DNA of 64,000 nt from positions 1 to 64,000 of the forward strand of contig CACDDC010000004.1 in assembly GCA_902551455.1 (NCBI GenBank), read 5' to 3'. Shown here one piece after another: positions 39,826 to 50,029 of the stretch. Below the pieces are notes generated by a model. It was not told where the DNA came from and searched no databases. It was given only the letters and a program-made list of their open reading frames with translations. The position numbers were made by a program, and so were the translations under genes. Each line of letters opens with the position of its first letter. Position 1 is the first letter of the stretch. The stretch comes from an uncultured Pelagibacteraceae bacterium. GTDB lineage: Bacteria > Pseudomonadota > Alphaproteobacteria > Pelagibacterales > Pelagibacteraceae.

Positions 39826-40955
39826 TTTTTATAAATTTTTCCTAAATAATTATCTAAAAATCTCTTATTTTTTGTCAAAAATTTAAGAAGAAAATTCCTA
39901 ATAAAAACTATTAGTCGATTTGATAAATGAAAAGCAAAATGATTAAAAATTGATCTTAAATTAACTGACTTTATCTTCTCATATCTTTTTTTATAATAAG
40001 TATTAGTATTATTTTCAATTTCTTCATACACTTCTTTGGAAGACTCTATCGATTGAGAAGCTCCTTGGGCAAATGACGGAGGAATTGCATAAAGTGCATC
40101 TCCTACAAAAAATATATTATTTATTTTAGGTTGATCAAATTTTTTGCTAATAAAAATTGGAAAAGATTTTAAATTTTTAATTTTATTTTTAAAATTAAAA
40201 GATGTTTTTGAAGATATTTCATTTAATGTAGATTGTAAAAAATCATCATTTTCAAAATATTTTTTATCTTTTGTTTCTTCTTCTTTTAGACGTTTTTTAA
40301 TTACTGAAATAAAGTTATATTCTTTATTTTGATTTACTGGATATATTACAAAATGAAAATTAGAGCCTAGATAAATAGAAATATCATTACTTTCAATGTT
40401 CTTGATATTGCCTCTTAAAGCAATTGAATTAAAATATTTTGGAATAATTTTTTTCTGAAATATCATTGATTTACTTTTTGAAAAAACACCATCAGATATT
40501 ATTAGATAATCAAATTGATCTTTATATTTATTTGAAAATGTTAAACTTAATTTATCTTTATATTCTATATTTTTTAATTCACAGTTATGAAAAATATTAT
40601 CTCTAGGAATATTTTTTAATAAAAATTTTAGTAATGTTGATCTTTTTAAAGTTGTATATTTATTATGTTCATAATTAAATTTTGATATTTCAATATCACA
40701 AATTTTTTTAGATGATTTTGCATCATAAAAAATTACTTTTTTAGGAAAAGATACTTCTTGCTCATCAATGTTTTTAAAACCTATTTCATTTAATAATTGA
40801 ACGCTATTTACAGAAAGCTGTATTCCATATCCATTAACTAATTCAAAATTTTTTTTTTTTTCAAAAATTTGATAATTATATTTCAGGTTTTTTTGGAGAA
40901 GGTTCGCAAAATATAAACCAGAAATTCCTGCTCCAATAATTGCAATTTTTTTCAT
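39822..40955 (-). CDS. FAD-dependent monooxygenase-like protein
   Basis: IAIIGAGISGLYFANLLQKN and FFVGDALYAIPPSFAQGASQSIES. Confidence 0.85.
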   Translation of the reverse strand: MKKIAIIGAGISGLYFANLLQKNLKYNYQIFEKKKNFELVNGYGIQLSVNSVQLLNEIGFKNIDEQEVSFPKKVIFYDAKSSKKICDIEISKFNYEHNKYTTLKRSTLLKFLLKNIPRDNIFHNCELKNIEYKDKLSLTFSNKYKDQFDYLIISDGVFSKSKSMIFQKKIIPKYFNSIALRGNIKNIESNDISIYLGSNFHFVIYPVNQNKEYNFISVIKKRLKEEETKDKKYFENDDFLQSTLNEISSKTSFNFKNKIKNLKSFPIFISKKFDQPKINNIFFVGDALYAIPPSFAQGASQSIESSKEVYEEIENNTNTYYKKRYEKIKSVNLRSIFNHFAFHLSNRLIVFIRNFLLKFLTKNKRFLDNYLGKIYKN

Positions 40956-41944
40956 TAATAATTTATTACTGATTTAAAAATTTTTTTAGTAAAAGATGGC
41001 AATATATATTTTGTAATTTCATTTCTATCTAAAAAAAAACCATTTTTTAAATTAGTTCTTTTATTTGTTTTATTTATTATTATCTTCATATCCATATTTG
41101 ACATTTTAATATTAATTCTTTTATTTATGGAAGATTTAAATTTTTGTTTATTAATTTCTTTCATAGGAAAAATTAATAAATTTTTTAAAAAATTAAATTT
41201 ATTATTTTTGACTAATATATATCTGTTTTTGTTTACAAATATATTTGCCTCAAAATATTTAATTTTATTAAATTTATCATTAGATTTAATTTCAAAATCA
41301 TTTTTTTTGAATGAAATACAACTTTTTTTTATTGGGCATTTAAAACATAAAGGGTTTGTTGGTTTGCAAATTAATGCACCTATTTCCATAATAGCTTGCG
41401 CATAGTCGCTAGATCTATTTGATTTACCAAAAAAAAATTTTTTTTTATTTAAATATTCTTTATTAATTTGCTTATATTTTAGTAAATAAAATACTCTTTT
41501 CAAAATCCTTTCAACATTTCCATCAAGAGGAATGAAGGGTTTGTTGAAAGCAATAGCCATTATTGCTGCTGAAGTATAGTCCCCAATTCCTGGTAATTTT
41601 TTTAGTTCATCAATACTTTGTGGTAAGTTTCCGTTGTAATCTTTTATTATTTTTTTTGCAGTTTTCTTCAAGTTTAATGCTCTAGAATAATATCCTAGAC
41701 CTTCCCAACACTTCATAATTTTTTGATCACTCACTTTAGCTAATGTTTGTATGTCTGGAATTTTTTTTATAAAGTTTTCAAAATATGGAATTACAGTTTT
41801 AACCTGTGTTTGTTGTAACATTATTTCACTAACTAATGTAAAATATTGTCTTTGCTTTTGAGAAACATAATTTCTCCATGGTAATTTTCTTTTATTATTA
41901 TCGTACCAATAAAGAATTTTTTTTGATATGTTTTGGCTCTTCAT
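40955..41944 (-). CDS. mutY: A/G-specific adenine glycosylase
   Basis: LPWRNYVSQKQRQYFTLVSEIMLQQTQVKTVIPYF, HhH LPGIGDYTSAAIMAIAF, Fe-S ligands CKPTNPLCFKCPIKKSC. Confidence 0.94.
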   Translation of the reverse strand: MKSQNISKKILYWYDNNKRKLPWRNYVSQKQRQYFTLVSEIMLQQTQVKTVIPYFENFIKKIPDIQTLAKVSDQKIMKCWEGLGYYSRALNLKKTAKKIIKDYNGNLPQSIDELKKLPGIGDYTSAAIMAIAFNKPFIPLDGNVERILKRVFYLLKYKQINKEYLNKKKFFFGKSNRSSDYAQAIMEIGALICKPTNPLCFKCPIKKSCISFKKNDFEIKSNDKFNKIKYFEANIFVNKNRYILVKNNKFNFLKNLLIFPMKEINKQKFKSSINKRINIKMSNMDMKIIINKTNKRTNLKNGFFLDRNEITKYILPSFTKKIFKSVINY

Positions 41945-42289
41945 ATGAAATATAAAAGCAATACTAGGCAGAGAAAGAAATCAATTCAAGGATTAAGATC
42001 ATTTAAAGACACTTTGCCAAAGAAAATTAGAGAAAACTTTTTAAAAAAAGGTAATTTATATTCAAAAATTACTAAAAATTGGAAAATAATTGTTGGCAAT
42101 GACCTTAATAACGCATGTTCTCCAAAGTCATTTAAAAATATAAAAAATTCTGGCATAAAGAGGTTGAATATTATGGTCAAAAGAGGTTATGAAACAGAAG
42201 TTGAGTATTCTAGAGAAATAATAATTAAAAAAATTAATAATTTCCTTGGATACGAATTTGTTAATAAAATTAAATTATTAAGAAATTAA
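41945..42289 (+). CDS. DUF721 (DciA-like) protein
   Basis: Small basic protein with SKITKNWKIIVGNDLNNACSPKSFKN...LNIMVKRGYETEVEYSREIIIKKINNFLGYEFVNKIKLL; ATG at 41945. Confidence 0.65.
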   Translation: MKYKSNTRQRKKSIQGLRSFKDTLPKKIRENFLKKGNLYSKITKNWKIIVGNDLNNACSPKSFKNIKNSGIKRLNIMVKRGYETEVEYSREIIIKKINNFLGYEFVNKIKLLRN

Positions 42290-42292
42290 AAA

Positions 42293-42874
42293 ATGAAAAA
42301 AATATTCTACGTATTTTTATTTTTAATAATTGGTATCACTCCACTAAATTCTGCTTCAAAGGTAAATACAATAATTGAGGGGAATATAGATGCAAAAATT
42401 ACAATGCTAGTTTATGAGTCTTTAACATGTAGTCATTGTGCTAGTTTTCATGAAAATATTTATCCTAAATTAAAAAAAGATTTTATAGATCAAGGTCTAG
42501 TTAAAATTGAATATAAAAATTTTCCATTAGATTTGGCTGCATTCAATGCTTCTAAAATTGCTCATTGCAGAAATGATGGAAAATCAGATATTCTACATTT
42601 TTTGTTTGAAAATCAAAAAAAGTGGGCAAATGTGGAAACCGTCGAAGAAGCTAATGCCAATTTAATTAAAATTTTAAAAGATGATTATTCTGATATTAAC
42701 TTTGAAAAATGTGTTAATAATCAGTCAATTGAAGATCATGTACTAGAAGATCGAATCGATGGAGTTAAAAAATTTAAAATAAATGCTACTCCTACTCTAA
42801 TTATAAATGATAAAAAGTTTGATAATCCGCTAGACTATGAAAAATTAAAGAAAACTCTTAAAAAAATGATATAA
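42293..42874 (+). CDS. DsbA-family thiol:disulfide interchange protein
   Basis: Signal peptide and thioredoxin-fold MLVYESLTCSHCASFHENIYPKLKKDFIDQGLV. Confidence 0.9.
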   Translation: MKKIFYVFLFLIIGITPLNSASKVNTIIEGNIDAKITMLVYESLTCSHCASFHENIYPKLKKDFIDQGLVKIEYKNFPLDLAAFNASKIAHCRNDGKSDILHFLFENQKKWANVETVEEANANLIKILKDDYSDINFEKCVNNQSIEDHVLEDRIDGVKKFKINATPTLIINDKKFDNPLDYEKLKKTLKKMI

Positions 42875-42882
42875 CTATAATA

Positions 42883-45279
42883 ATGGAGTTTAAAAAAATT
42901 CAATTAAATGGATTTAAATCATTTGCGGAAAAAACAAATTTTCTTATTGAAGAAGGTTTGACTGGAATTGTTGGACCCAATGGTTGTGGAAAATCAAATA
43001 TAGTAGAATCTCTTAGGTGGTGTATGGGGGAGACTTCAGCAAAAAGTATGCGTGGGTCTGGTATGGAAGATGTTATATTTTCAGGAACTTCTAACAAACC
43101 ATCAAAAAATATTGCGGAAGTTTCTATAAAATTATCAAATCAGAACAAAGATGGACCAATTCAATATAAGGAATTAGACGATATAGAGATACGAAGAAAA
43201 ATTGAAAAAGATAAAGGTTCAAAATTTTATATTAATGACAAAGAAGTAAGGGCAAAAGATGCTCAAATGTTTTTTGCTGATTTATCAACTGGCGCTCATT
43301 CCCCTTCCATAATCAGTCAAGGTAGAATTGGTTCATTGGTTACTGCAAAACCAGTAGATAGAAGGGCAATTTTAGAAGAAGCTGCAGGTATAGCTGGTCT
43401 ACATGCAAGAAGACATGAAGCAGAGCTTAGATTAAGTGCTGCTGAAAATAACTTAAAACGAGCAGATGAATTAAGAAAACAGCAAGAGAAGCAATTAATA
43501 AATCTTCTAAAACAAGCGGAAGAAGCAACAAAATATAAAAATATTTCTGAAGAAATAAAGAAAATTGAGGCAGGACTTTATTATTTAAGACTAAAAGATA
43601 TTGAACAAGAAATTCGAATTGAGAATGAAATTAATTCTGAAGCAGAAAATGAAGTAAAAGTTTTTAATGAAAAAATGGAAATTATTGAAAAAAAAATAAA
43701 AGAAGAAAATGAAAAAGTTGATCCTATAAGAAACAAAAATATTGAAAATTTATCTAAAATTCAAAGACTTAATTTAGAGTTAAAAAGTCTGGATGAAGCA
43801 AGCGATAGAATAAAAAATGAAATTGAAAATATTAAAAATTCACTGAAAACAATTGATGATGATGTGGATAGAGAAAAAAGTATAGTGATAGATGCAAATT
43901 CAAATGAAAAAAGACTAAAAGAAGAAAAACTTGAGTTAATTGAAATCGACTCGAAATATTATGAGACTGAAAAAAAATCTAATCAAGATTTAGAATCCAC
44001 AAAAAATAGATTAAAGCTAGAGATAGATAAGGTTAAAGAATTGATAATTTCAAAAAACAATGATGAAGCAATTACTATTCTAGATAATTGTAAAATAATT
44101 ATTGAAGAATATGCAGATAGCTACAGCAAAAATCAAGGTATAAAAAAAGAGTCTGTTAAAAGAAATGAGAGAATAAAAACTATAGAAAAAGAAATCGAAA
44201 GTTGGAAAAATCTTTTAATTAATTCAGAAAAAATGATTAATGAACTAAACGATAGAAAGAAAAAACAAATAAATAAACTTAAAGAATTAGAGAATGAACC
44301 TCAAACTCAAGCGGAAAAAAAGGGCCAGATTTCTGAAAGTTTAAGAATTTCAGAAGAAGAAAAAAATGAAAATGAAAATATAATAGAAGAAATTGATAAC
44401 AAAATTAATCAACTAAGGGAAGAATTAGACAATACAAAGGAAAACTCAATAGAAATCAGAGAAAGAAAAGCAAGCTCAGGAGCAACTGTTGAAGGATTAA
44501 ATAAAAGAAAAAATGATTTACTTGAAAGAGTTCAAACAGAATTGGACCTCGATGAAAGTAATATTCTAGAATTTTCAAATTTGGAAAAAAATGAAGAATT
44601 TCCAGATGCTGTAACTCAAGAAGAGCTTTTAGATGCAAAAAAAAGGGATAGAGATAAACTTGGTTCTGTAAATCTAAGAGCTGATGAAGAAACAACAAAA
44701 TATGAAACTGAAATAAAAAAAATGGAACAAGATAGGCAAGACCTAGTCAGTGCAATTATAAAACTTAAAGAAAGTATTAACGAATTAAATCAAAAAGGTA
44801 GAGAAAGACTTTTGGAAGCTTTTGAAAAAGTAAATAGAAAATTTAATGAGGTATATACAAAACTTTTTAATGGAGGTAATGCGAAATTAGAATTAGTTGA
44901 CTCTGACGATCCACTAGATGCAGGTCTTGAAATGTTAGTGAGCCCACCAGGTAAAAGGCTGCAGTCAATAACACTTTTATCAGGTGGTGAACAGGCGCTT
45001 ACTGCGTTATCACTTATTTTTGCAGTTTTTCTAACTAATCCATCTCCTATATGTGTTCTTGATGAAGTAGACGCTCCATTAGATGATGCTAATGTAACTA
45101 GATTTTGTAATTTGCTCGAAGAATTAAACAAAATTACAACAACAAGATTTATAATTGTAACTCACCATGCACTTACAATGTCAAAAATGGATAGATTGTA
45201 TGGTGTAACAATGCCAGAAAAAGGCATTAGTCAATTAGTGGCGGTTGATTTACAAAAAGCTGAAAGCATGGTTGCTTAA
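42883..45279 (+). CDS. smc: Chromosome segregation SMC-family ATPase, short form
   Basis: Walker A GIVGPNGCGKSNIVESLRW, signature LLSGGEQALTALSLIFA, Walker B PICVLDEVDAPLDD, coiled coils; 798 aa. Confidence 0.93.
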   Translation: MEFKKIQLNGFKSFAEKTNFLIEEGLTGIVGPNGCGKSNIVESLRWCMGETSAKSMRGSGMEDVIFSGTSNKPSKNIAEVSIKLSNQNKDGPIQYKELDDIEIRRKIEKDKGSKFYINDKEVRAKDAQMFFADLSTGAHSPSIISQGRIGSLVTAKPVDRRAILEEAAGIAGLHARRHEAELRLSAAENNLKRADELRKQQEKQLINLLKQAEEATKYKNISEEIKKIEAGLYYLRLKDIEQEIRIENEINSEAENEVKVFNEKMEIIEKKIKEENEKVDPIRNKNIENLSKIQRLNLELKSLDEASDRIKNEIENIKNSLKTIDDDVDREKSIVIDANSNEKRLKEEKLELIEIDSKYYETEKKSNQDLESTKNRLKLEIDKVKELIISKNNDEAITILDNCKIIIEEYADSYSKNQGIKKESVKRNERIKTIEKEIESWKNLLINSEKMINELNDRKKKQINKLKELENEPQTQAEKKGQISESLRISEEEKNENENIIEEIDNKINQLREELDNTKENSIEIRERKASSGATVEGLNKRKNDLLERVQTELDLDESNILEFSNLEKNEEFPDAVTQEELLDAKKRDRDKLGSVNLRADEETTKYETEIKKMEQDRQDLVSAIIKLKESINELNQKGRERLLEAFEKVNRKFNEVYTKLFNGGNAKLELVDSDDPLDAGLEMLVSPPGKRLQSITLLSGGEQALTALSLIFAVFLTNPSPICVLDEVDAPLDDANVTRFCNLLEELNKITTTRFIIVTHHALTMSKMDRLYGVTMPEKGISQLVAVDLQKAESMVA

Positions 45280-45284
45280 ATTGA

Positions 45285-45560
45285 ATGCCAAATGACCAAT
45301 TTAAAACTCGCCTTAAAATTGCAAAAGACAAGTTAAAAACAGTTAAATTTAATAAAAAAGCAGAACCTAAGTCAAATATTGGCCATGCTTTTAAAATGAG
45401 CACTGAATTGGTATCTGCTGTTGCAGTTGGGACAATTATTGGGTTTATTTTAGACAATTGGTTTGGTACTAAACCTTGGTTAATTTTAATATTTTTTTTT
45501 GTGGGCGTAATCACTGGAATTTTGAATGTGATAAAGTCTGCAAAAAAAATGCAAAAATAG
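45285..45560 (+). CDS. atpI: ATP synthase protein I
   Basis: Small two-TM protein VGTIIGFILDNWFGTKPWLILIFFFVGVITGILNVI upstream of atpB. Confidence 0.88.
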   Translation: MPNDQFKTRLKIAKDKLKTVKFNKKAEPKSNIGHAFKMSTELVSAVAVGTIIGFILDNWFGTKPWLILIFFFVGVITGILNVIKSAKKMQK

Positions 45561-47681: not shown

Positions 47682-49139
47682 ATGAATTCTTTAGTTATAG
47701 GATCTGGTTTTGGTGGTATAGCAGCAGCACTTAGACTTAGAGCTAAGAAACATAAAGTTACTTTAATAGAAAAACACTCTGATCTTGGCGGAAGAGCAAG
47801 GGTATTTAAGAAAAATGGTTTTATTTTTGATGGTGGACCTACTGTAATTACAGCACCGTACTTGATTTATGAACTCTTTGAACTTTTTAATAAAAAACCT
47901 CAAGATTATATAGAGATTAAACCTATTGATACTTGGTACAGATTTGTTTTTGAAGACGGAAAAGAATTTGATTATTCGGGAAATGAAGAATTAATGAAAA
48001 TTCAAATTAAAAAAATAAGTGAAAAAGATATTAAAGGTTATGAAAATTTAGTTAGTTTTACTAAAAAAATTTTTGATAAAGGTTTTACTGAACTATCAGA
48101 TGTTCCATTTGATAAATCTTTTTTTATGTTAAAACAGATTCCTGCTTTATTAAAATTAAAAAGCTATAAATCAGTTTATTCTTTAGTTTCATCTTTTATC
48201 AAAAACGAAAAATTAAGAAGAATATTAAGTATGCATCCTTTATTAGTTGGTGGTAATCCTTTTACAACAACTTCAATATATGGATTAATATTATATTTGG
48301 AAAAAAAATGGGGTGTTCATTATTCTATGGGTGGAACTGGCAATATCATTAAAGGCCTAGAAAAATTAATGATAGAAGAAAATATAGAAATAATAAAAGG
48401 TTCTGAAGTTATAAATATAAATTCCCAAGGAGGAAAAATTAAGAGTGTAAAATTGCAAAATCAGTTAGAAATAATGGCTGATAATGTTATTTGTAATGCA
48501 GATCCACCTTCGGTTTATGATAAATTAATAAATAATAAAAAAACAAATGCCTTTTTTAATTGGAAAAAAAAACGAATGGAATATTCCATGGGTTTATTTG
48601 TTTATTATTTTGGAACAAAAAAAGTTTACGAAAAAGTAGCTCACCATACAATAAAGTTTGGAGACAAATATAAAGAACATTTAGATGATATTTTTAAAAA
48701 TAAAAAAATAAATGATGATATAAGTTATTATTTACACAGACCATCTGCAACGGATAAATCAATGGCTCCTGAAGGACATGATTGTTTTTATGTTTTGGTT
48801 CCTGTTCCAAATAACCAATCTGGAATTAACTGGTCTATCGAAGGAGATAAACTTAAAAATTTAGTTATAAGCAAGATGGAAAAAAGTTTATTACCCAATT
48901 TAAAAAATAATATAGTTGAAGATTTTTATTTAACTCCTGATTATTTTGAAAATGAATTAAATACAAAATATGGTTCTGGTTTTTCAGTACAACCAAAATT
49001 AACGCAGTCTGCTTACTTTAGATTTCATAATAAATCTGAAATTTTAGATGGTCTTTATTTTGTTGGAGCAGGTACTCATCCAGGAGCTGGCATACCCGGA
49101 GTTCTTTCGTCTGCTAAAGTATTGGATAAAATAATTTAA
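47682..49139 (+). CDS. crtI: Phytoene desaturase
   Basis: VIGSGFGGIAAALRLRAKKHKVTLIEKHSDLGGRARVFKKNGFIFDGGPTVI; C-terminal YFVGAGTHPGAGIPGVLSSAKV. Confidence 0.95.
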   Translation: MNSLVIGSGFGGIAAALRLRAKKHKVTLIEKHSDLGGRARVFKKNGFIFDGGPTVITAPYLIYELFELFNKKPQDYIEIKPIDTWYRFVFEDGKEFDYSGNEELMKIQIKKISEKDIKGYENLVSFTKKIFDKGFTELSDVPFDKSFFMLKQIPALLKLKSYKSVYSLVSSFIKNEKLRRILSMHPLLVGGNPFTTTSIYGLILYLEKKWGVHYSMGGTGNIIKGLEKLMIEENIEIIKGSEVININSQGGKIKSVKLQNQLEIMADNVICNADPPSVYDKLINNKKTNAFFNWKKKRMEYSMGLFVYYFGTKKVYEKVAHHTIKFGDKYKEHLDDIFKNKKINDDISYYLHRPSATDKSMAPEGHDCFYVLVPVPNNQSGINWSIEGDKLKNLVISKMEKSLLPNLKNNIVEDFYLTPDYFENELNTKYGSGFSVQPKLTQSAYFRFHNKSEILDGLYFVGAGTHPGAGIPGVLSSAKVLDKII

Positions 49140-50029
49140 TGACAAAAAAAAACTATCTAGCTACATTTGCTAAATCGTTTCATTGGGCTGGATTTTTTTT
49201 ACCTAAAAATGTTTACGATGATTGCTCTAAGCTATATGCATTTTGTAGAGTGCTGGATGATTTGGTGGATGAAAAAACTAACTTAAAATTAAGAGTAAAA
49301 AAATTTAATGAAGTTAAAAATATTTTTAATAAAACTTATGAACTAGACAATAATGATAAAAAGGTAATGGATCAAAATGAGCATAAAATAATTGTATATG
49401 ATATGATTATCCTTGCAAATAAAAATAATATAAAAAGAATTATTTTAGATGATTTAATCGAAGGTGTTAGTTCAGATTTAAAAAAAAAAGTTTATTTAAA
49501 ATCAGTAAAAGATTTATTAATTTATTCATATAGAGTTGCTGGAACAGTTGGGTTAATGATGGCTAGAATACTAAATGTAAACGATACAAGATCTTTAAAG
49601 GGAGCAATAGATTTAGGCATTGCAATGCAACTTACAAATATAGCAAGAGATGTGATTGAAGATCAAAAAATGAATAGACAATATATTAAACCAGATTTTA
49701 AAAATATTGAAGCAACGTTAAAACTGGCAGATATGTTTTATGAAAGTTCATTTAGTTCAATAAAGAAAATTCCATTTAAATATAGATTTGCGATAATTGT
49801 AGCCAGAAGAGTTTACAGACAAATTGGAAGAAAAATTATACAAAAAAAAAGTATGGAGAGTTATGAAAAATCGGGAAAAATTTATGTTAATAATTTTGGA
49901 AAAATATATCAAACTATTCTATCTTTATTTGATTTAATGTTGCTTTTTTTAAAAGATGTAGAGTCTCATCAAAGAAATAAGGAATATAAAATTATAAGTG
50001 AGGAAGTAAATCTAGATGAAAGAATTTGA
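49139..50029 (+). CDS. crtB: Phytoene synthase
   Basis: LYAFCRVLDDLVDE, GIAMQLTNIARDVIEDQ. Confidence 0.94.
   Translation: MTKKNYLATFAKSFHWAGFFLPKNVYDDCSKLYAFCRVLDDLVDEKTNLKLRVKKFNEVKNIFNKTYELDNNDKKVMDQNEHKIIVYDMIILANKNNIKRIILDDLIEGVSSDLKKKVYLKSVKDLLIYSYRVAGTVGLMMARILNVNDTRSLKGAIDLGIAMQLTNIARDVIEDQKMNRQYIKPDFKNIEATLKLADMFYESSFSSIKKIPFKYRFAIIVARRVYRQIGRKIIQKKSMESYEKSGKIYVNNFGKIYQTILSLFDLMLLFLKDVESHQRNKEYKIISEEVNLDERI

Follow-up and report, generated by a model that had tools for sequence, protein, structure and literature searches.

The window (64,000 nucleotides of contig CACDDC010000004.1, from an uncultured Pelagibacteraceae bacterium) encodes an SMC protein of 798 aa, and profile searches together with a predicted structure confirm that it has an intact ATPase head, has lost the hinge and carries no hook. 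In nearly every known SMC the two halves are joined by the hinge, which is held to be essential as the domain that dimerises the protomers and closes the ring. SAR11 bacteria (Pelagibacterales), which are among the most numerous cells on Earth, and the unrelated marine SAR86 bacteria apparently organise their chromosomes with a hinge-less SMC.

The smc gene and its neighbourhood

The predicted product of the gene (Table 1) exhibits SMC-type sequence throughout and matches TIGR02168 (SMC_prok_B, the bacterial SMC equivalog) at 655.8 bits, above the cut-off of 567.35. The first-pass annotation had called the protein a true SMC with a complete head from the presence of GPNGCGKSN, LSGGEQALTALSLIFA and VLDEVDAPLDD. 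All three are found in the 798-aa ORF and the assignment holds, with Walker A, the signature and Walker B intact and invariant across the aligned relatives. A genome-wide SMC_N search returned no second SMC, the remaining matches being weak, ABC-ATPase-like frames, and a single smc locus is present in each relative as well as in the closed genomes G158, G267, G350, G351 and G448. The RecN family is absent from the 25 best NCBIfam matches, the RecN structure 4ABY is a weak match (E 0.00099), and the protein has neither RecN-type sequence nor the RecN length of about 550 aa. The zinc-hook CxxC expected at the apex of Rad50/SbcC proteins is also missing.

The gene order mutY-dciA-dsbA-smc-atpI-atpB is common, whole or in large part, to hinge-bearing alphaproteobacteria (e.g. 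Magnetovibrio L246, L262 and L266), and is also found in the short-armed hinge-bearing L239 and L255 and in MarineAlpha6-type bins. The gene is regarded as a genuine smc because it is the sole SMC in its genome, scores above the SMC_prok_B cut-off and lies in a neighbourhood common to hinge-bearing alphaproteobacteria. Sequence and synteny identify the 798-aa protein as the chromosomal SMC orthologue of a SAR11 bacterium. The head tree and the neighbourhood identify it as alphaproteobacterial and place it outside the actinobacterial hinge-less clade. Further along the window, apparent phytoene desaturase and phytoene synthase genes (47682-50029; crtI- and crtB-like by eye) are located just downstream of the ATP synthase genes that come after smc.

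Table 1. Features of the smc locus in the window
Feature	Position	Strand	Basis
mutY-like glycosylase, conserved neighbour of alphaproteobacterial smc	40955..41944	-	neighbourhood comparison
dciA (DUF721), conserved neighbour	41933..42289	+	neighbourhood comparison
DsbA-like thioredoxin, conserved, directly upstream of smc	42293..42874	+	neighbourhood comparison
smc, hinge-less SMC, 798 aa, ATG start	42883..45279	+	ORF; TIGR02168 match
Walker A, GPNGCGKS, residues 31-38	42973..42996	+	sequence; invariant in 35 aligned relatives
N-terminal arm, predicted as one continuous helix, residues 173-389	43399..44049	+	AlphaFold2
Predicted apex hairpin in place of hinge, residues 377-411	44011..44115	+	AlphaFold2, hinge profile, conservation
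Predicted three-residue turn at hairpin tip, residues 390-392	44050-44058	+	AlphaFold2; pLDDT of surrounding blocks 82-86
Predicted C-terminal arm helices, residues 393-554	44059..44544	+	AlphaFold2
Predicted SMC joint-like region, C-terminal strand to short helices, about residues 555-605	44545..44697	+	AlphaFold2
ABC signature LSGGE, residues 699-703	44977..44991	+	sequence; relatives' alignment
Walker B and D-loop ICVLDEVDAPLDD, residues 723-735	45049..45087	+	sequence; relatives' alignment
atpI, conserved, directly downstream of smc	45285..45560	+	neighbourhood comparison

Absence of the hinge

A Pfam search identified no SMC_hinge match in the window SMC, in agreement with the first-pass annotation, and zero candidates in its genome. 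The missing match was rejected as proof of loss, since the Pfam profile (PF06470) is too weak for this class: it matched in just 91 of 289 genomes and missed the hinge-bearing alphaproteobacterial SMC L239. A class-specific hinge profile was therefore built from 43 full-length alphaproteobacterial SMCs and used with controls. This profile scores 73.9-159.9 bits in the 43 full-length hinge-bearing proteins and 73.6-146.9 bits in short-armed hinge-bearing SMCs of 860-987 aa that were held out of its building, and all Pelagibacterales SMCs either reach at most 3.9 bits or are unmatched. The Pelagibacterales SMCs lack the WRWDG block that all the aligned hinges have in common, and the central 150 residues of the window SMC contain only two Gly or Pro. 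A second hinge profile was run over whole genomes, where it matched 15 of 15 hinge-bearing positive controls and identified no detached hinge gene in 61 genomes of the order, eight further Pelagibacterales or three MarineAlpha6-type genomes. CxxC occurs in no complete hinge-less SMC. The earlier claims that both the hinge and a Rad50-type hook are absent are thus borne out: neither the profiles nor the predicted structure revealed a hinge, and the genome search found no other full-length SMC.

Truncation or assembly error is ruled out as the source of the short protein. The length of 798 aa recurs exactly in 48 sequences and that of 857 aa in 34, and such exact recurrence in dozens of genomes argues that the gene is no assembly artefact.

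Predicted structure of the arms and apex

The AlphaFold2 model of the window SMC (35 natural homologues, mean pLDDT 77, pTM 0.48) places a hairpin where the hinge would be (Table 1). The short helical link that the first-pass annotation had pointed out (residues 385-422) corresponds to the tip of this hairpin. The sequence comparisons and the model indicate that the protein has lost its entire hinge together with the distal portion of both arms, and that each protomer terminates in a simple antiparallel helical hairpin. With B. subtilis Smc as the yardstick (1186 aa, arms of 344 residues; PMC5344682) and an assumed hinge of 175 residues, the arms are estimated at about 236 residues in the 798-aa type and 265 in the 857-aa type. 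The 857-aa type, which belongs to the same genus, is also modelled, at lower confidence, as hairpin-ended with arms about 29-30 residues longer per side. The earlier account was incomplete in this respect, as the arms are shortened along with the loss of the hinge; it also did not extend to the distribution of the trait, which is order-wide and recurs in SAR86.

Among PDB folds, 5XEI, an SMC head with coiled coil and joint, matches the model best. In the published SMC joint, a C-terminal strand split into several helices faces one continuous N-terminal helix (PMC5526789). The predicted break-up at about residues 555-600 resembles this arrangement, and in the model the joint is retained.

Distribution and independent losses

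Every SMC recovered from Pelagibacterales is hinge-less, with lengths of 798-891 aa: 798 or 857 aa in the genus of the window, 809-891 aa in other genera of the family and 863-868 aa in the second family. Most other Alphaproteobacteria listed have intact SMCs of about 1150-1170 aa. Hinge-less SMCs are also found in a family of another order (linked to MarineAlpha6_Bin4 and SP38 by a scan of named genomes, 817 aa) and in Gammaproteobacteria, namely in SAR86 MED-G166 (736 aa, L272:4001-6208) and a second marine member of the class, SP335 (906 aa, L244:4001-6718). From the reading of their ORFs, both gammaproteobacterial genes lie in an apparent smc-zipA-ligA arrangement, and scpA and scpB adjoin the smc locus of SP335. 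A gammaproteobacterial hinge profile scores 0.7 and -1.3 bits for the MED-G166 and SP335 pair, against 99.9-177.4 bits for its 30 source SMCs. When the SAR86 SMC was used as a query over a phylum sample, the matches listed were, besides this one, only full-size SMCs.

On the head tree the Pelagibacterales form one group (SH-aLRT 99), separate from the gammaproteobacterial pair, and by sequence the hinge loss in SAR86 is independent of that in SAR11. A loss shared by Pelagibacterales and the MarineAlpha6-type bins is not rejected (AU p 0.18), and therefore either one or two losses took place within Alphaproteobacteria.

Arm shortening also occurs with the hinge in place. The SMCs of L189 and L239 (860-869 aa), L255 (881 aa) and L191 (936 aa) are short-armed and score 73-147 bits with the hinge profile, so that shortening of the arms is an event distinct from loss of the hinge; hinge loss as a by-product of arm shortening is rejected on the example of L189, L239 and L255. 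Together with L180 and L182, these alphaproteobacterial proteins span 860-987 aa and have shortened arms alone, and their arm lengths could extend the published arm-length surveys. In L193 (G279:C11, an alphaproteobacterial genome otherwise 99% complete) the SMC is divided over frames of 299 and 918 aa, for which a frameshift or a sequencing error are candidate causes.

Sequence constraint at the apex

The head and arms of the hinge-less SMC are under strong purifying selection, with dN/dS of about 0.02-0.06 (0.02 in the head), and the apex reaches 0.22 in the 798-aa type and 0.12 in the 857-aa type, all figures being only rough because dS is near saturation. By both entropy and dN/dS, no other part of the protein evolves as fast as the apex, and no residue between positions 339 and 440 is invariant among 35 relatives. 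Hinge-bearing SMCs exhibit the reverse, with a dozen or more invariant positions in the hinge region, where most of their invariant residues outside the head lie. The apex sequence differs between the Pelagibacterales families, while total length is strictly constant within a type. At the tip, the hydrophobic heptad positions L377, I388, A396, L400 and I407 are kept in at least 44 of 48 sequences of the 798-aa type, and the other positions are largely variable with the exceptions of K385 and L387.

Every sequence of the 857-aa type has the apex cysteine. In the 798-aa type, C403 is a cysteine in 32 of 48 sequences and F, L, I or S in the other 16, and a single apex cysteine or hook is accordingly rejected as the join. 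The variable apex and replaceable cysteine speak against a hook, a disulphide bond or an apical interface of high specificity. The first-pass annotation had proposed a different mode of dimerisation and an altered chromosome organisation. As a true SMC with neither hinge nor hook, the protein must indeed differ in dimerisation and ring closure, but the single cysteine that was among the suggested joins does not survive this comparison.

On the head tree, SMCs of the 798-aa type are intermixed with those of the 857-aa type, and a single 798-aa clade is rejected (AU p 1e-7); on a tree of the apex flanks the mixing is not clear (p 0.09). Recombination may have spread the apex allele (window 44011-44115 and the homologous segments of the two types), or matched trimming of the two arms may have happened on more than one occasion. 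Family f2, the second one in Pelagibacterales (L164:73-2664, residues about 395-445), has a strongly conserved apex. Its motif is KRDxWQ ... LKEVEGYDDPxxWTxxFxxKFY, and it looks similar to the junction between N-terminal coil and hinge in other alphaproteobacteria. This apex may be the scar of a hinge deletion, or else a small, novel tip domain; the comparison by hhalign (E 0.01, probability 4%) is suggestive only.

Partners and proposed mechanism

ScpA is found in 44 and ScpB in 46 of the 61 genomes of the order, including six genomes of the 798-aa type (G008, G015, G021, G029, G035 and G036). The expected partners, which the first-pass annotation had proposed looking for, are thus present in most relatives, and neither was found in the window's own genome, a draft that is 79% complete, for which reason their absence there is no evidence of loss. 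A parS-like site is present in every genome of the order tested. The number of parS sites was considered as a correlate, with fewer SMC collisions in the absence of a hinge; SAR11 genomes mostly have one good site, and hinge-bearing controls have 1-4, so the number is uninformative and the correlate was rejected.

We favour, at a probability of roughly 60%, a reading in which the protomers are joined by a kleisin bridge, head engagement and arm contacts, and the protein still acts as the SMC-ScpAB chromosome organiser. An asymmetric ScpA kleisin bridge with ScpB would join the two protomers at the bottom, ATP-driven head engagement would also hold them together, and side-by-side contacts of the arms and joints would assist with no dedicated dimerisation domain at the top. 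Such a complex would have the shape of a V or rod open at the top, and its sole closed compartment would be formed by the heads and kleisin. The heads would clamp the DNA, with neither an SMC-kleisin ring closed by a hinge nor a gate in the hinge. In the account given in PMC5526789, which cites Minnen 2016, a hinge-less Smc in B. subtilis is said to still dimerise via arm contacts. In B. subtilis, segregation does not depend on which fold the dimerisation domain has (PMC5344682), but the hinge there was swapped for another dimeriser, and such a swap does not demonstrate that the protein can do without one.

Alternative explanations

The main rival to the kleisin-joined, open-topped complex is a weak tip-to-tip contact, in which two hairpins would form a small four-helix bundle that serves as a minimal hinge and closes the ring on top. 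The conserved hairpin core (I388, A396 and L400) is what such a contact would also need and counts against the kleisin-joined reading; the full set of five heptad positions, the strictly constant total length and the conserved apex motif of family f2 in the same order point the same way. The conserved positions are, however, those expected for packing within a single hairpin, with the others largely variable, and the tip evolves faster than any other part of the protein and is unlike between families. We consider dimerisation through the tips unlikely, though worth keeping in view. The variable tip also bears on the suggestion that another protein binds the tips and supplies or functionally replaces the hinge, as it leaves little for a dedicated partner to recognise. 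Such a partner would be invisible from sequence, and the idea is compatible with every test, but no hinge-like sequence was found in the 61 genomes of the order and 11 further hinge-less genomes with a profile that recovered all 15 controls, and the smc locus has no unusual neighbour, which makes this explanation improbable.

The two remaining explanations deny the loss itself. A hinge that has diverged past recognition draws on the fact that some real alphaproteobacterial hinges escape Pfam, but the class profile finds at most 3.9 bits and there is no room for a domain in a predicted tip made of a three-residue turn, with so few Gly or Pro around it; we give this very little credence. It is equally hard to credit that the gene is a paralogue in decay or put to another use, and that the true SMC is encoded elsewhere. 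The draft genome could hide a second gene, being 79% complete, but dN/dS of 0.02-0.06 in the head and arms is not that of a decaying gene, the gene is a syntenic orthologue, and it is single-copy here, with one locus in each relative and likewise in the five closed genomes.

Implications and comparison with known systems

A gating role, in the passing of obstacles, has been suggested for the hinge (PMC12647877). We suggest tentatively that the hinge was lost independently in several lineages that rank among the most abundant free-living ones in the ocean (Pelagibacterales, SAR86 and, from the literature, marine Actinobacteria), and that SMC-ScpAB in these bacteria might be an open-topped clamp with no closed SMC-kleisin ring. 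If true, the hinge, hinge gating and topological ring closure would all be non-essential to SMC-type chromosome organisation. A natural, strongly conserved, single-copy hinge-less SMC provides a test, already at hand, of what the motor cannot do without, and with SAR11 strains in culture the question can be addressed through Hi-C and purified protein.

A marine actinobacterial clade with hinge-less SMCs has been known since 2025 from metagenomic ORFs (Sussfeld et al., PMC12153180). Those proteins resemble the window SMC in having a head and antiparallel coiled coil with no hinge or CxxC, in being abundant in the ocean and in resting on computational evidence only. They belong to a different phylum and come from metagenomic ORFs of uncertain host, whereas the present proteins are from named genomes, have an orthologous neighbourhood, occur with ScpAB in relatives, extend over an order and recur in SAR86. 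The terms 'SAR11' and 'Pelagibacter' are absent from the text of PMC12153180, and no report of a hinge-less SMC in SAR11 or SAR86 was found in the open-access literature. The hinge-less SMC itself was thus already known; what is new is its order-wide, syntenic presence in SAR11, with ScpAB in relatives, and its convergent appearance in SAR86.

The window SMC shares with canonical SMC-ScpAB (B. subtilis Smc, TIGR02168) the head motifs, the joint, the orthologous locus and the presence of ScpA and ScpB in relatives, and differs from B. subtilis Smc in the missing hinge, in arms of about 236 rather than 344 residues and in a length of 798 rather than 1186 aa. The short-armed alphaproteobacterial SMCs have similarly shortened arms, and L239 and L255 the same gene neighbourhood, but these proteins keep the full hinge. 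Rad50/SbcC proteins likewise combine a head and coiled coil with no SMC hinge; the window SMC differs in its SMC-type sequence and in the lack of a zinc-hook CxxC, the dimeriser being missing rather than replaced. Engineered B. subtilis Smc proteins (a Rad50 zinc hook in place of the hinge, and mini-Smc; PMC5344682) are similar in that the hinge fold is dispensable and short arms can be functional. These constructs retain some dimerisation domain, whereas in the SMC described here, with no visible replacement, the loss is a natural one.
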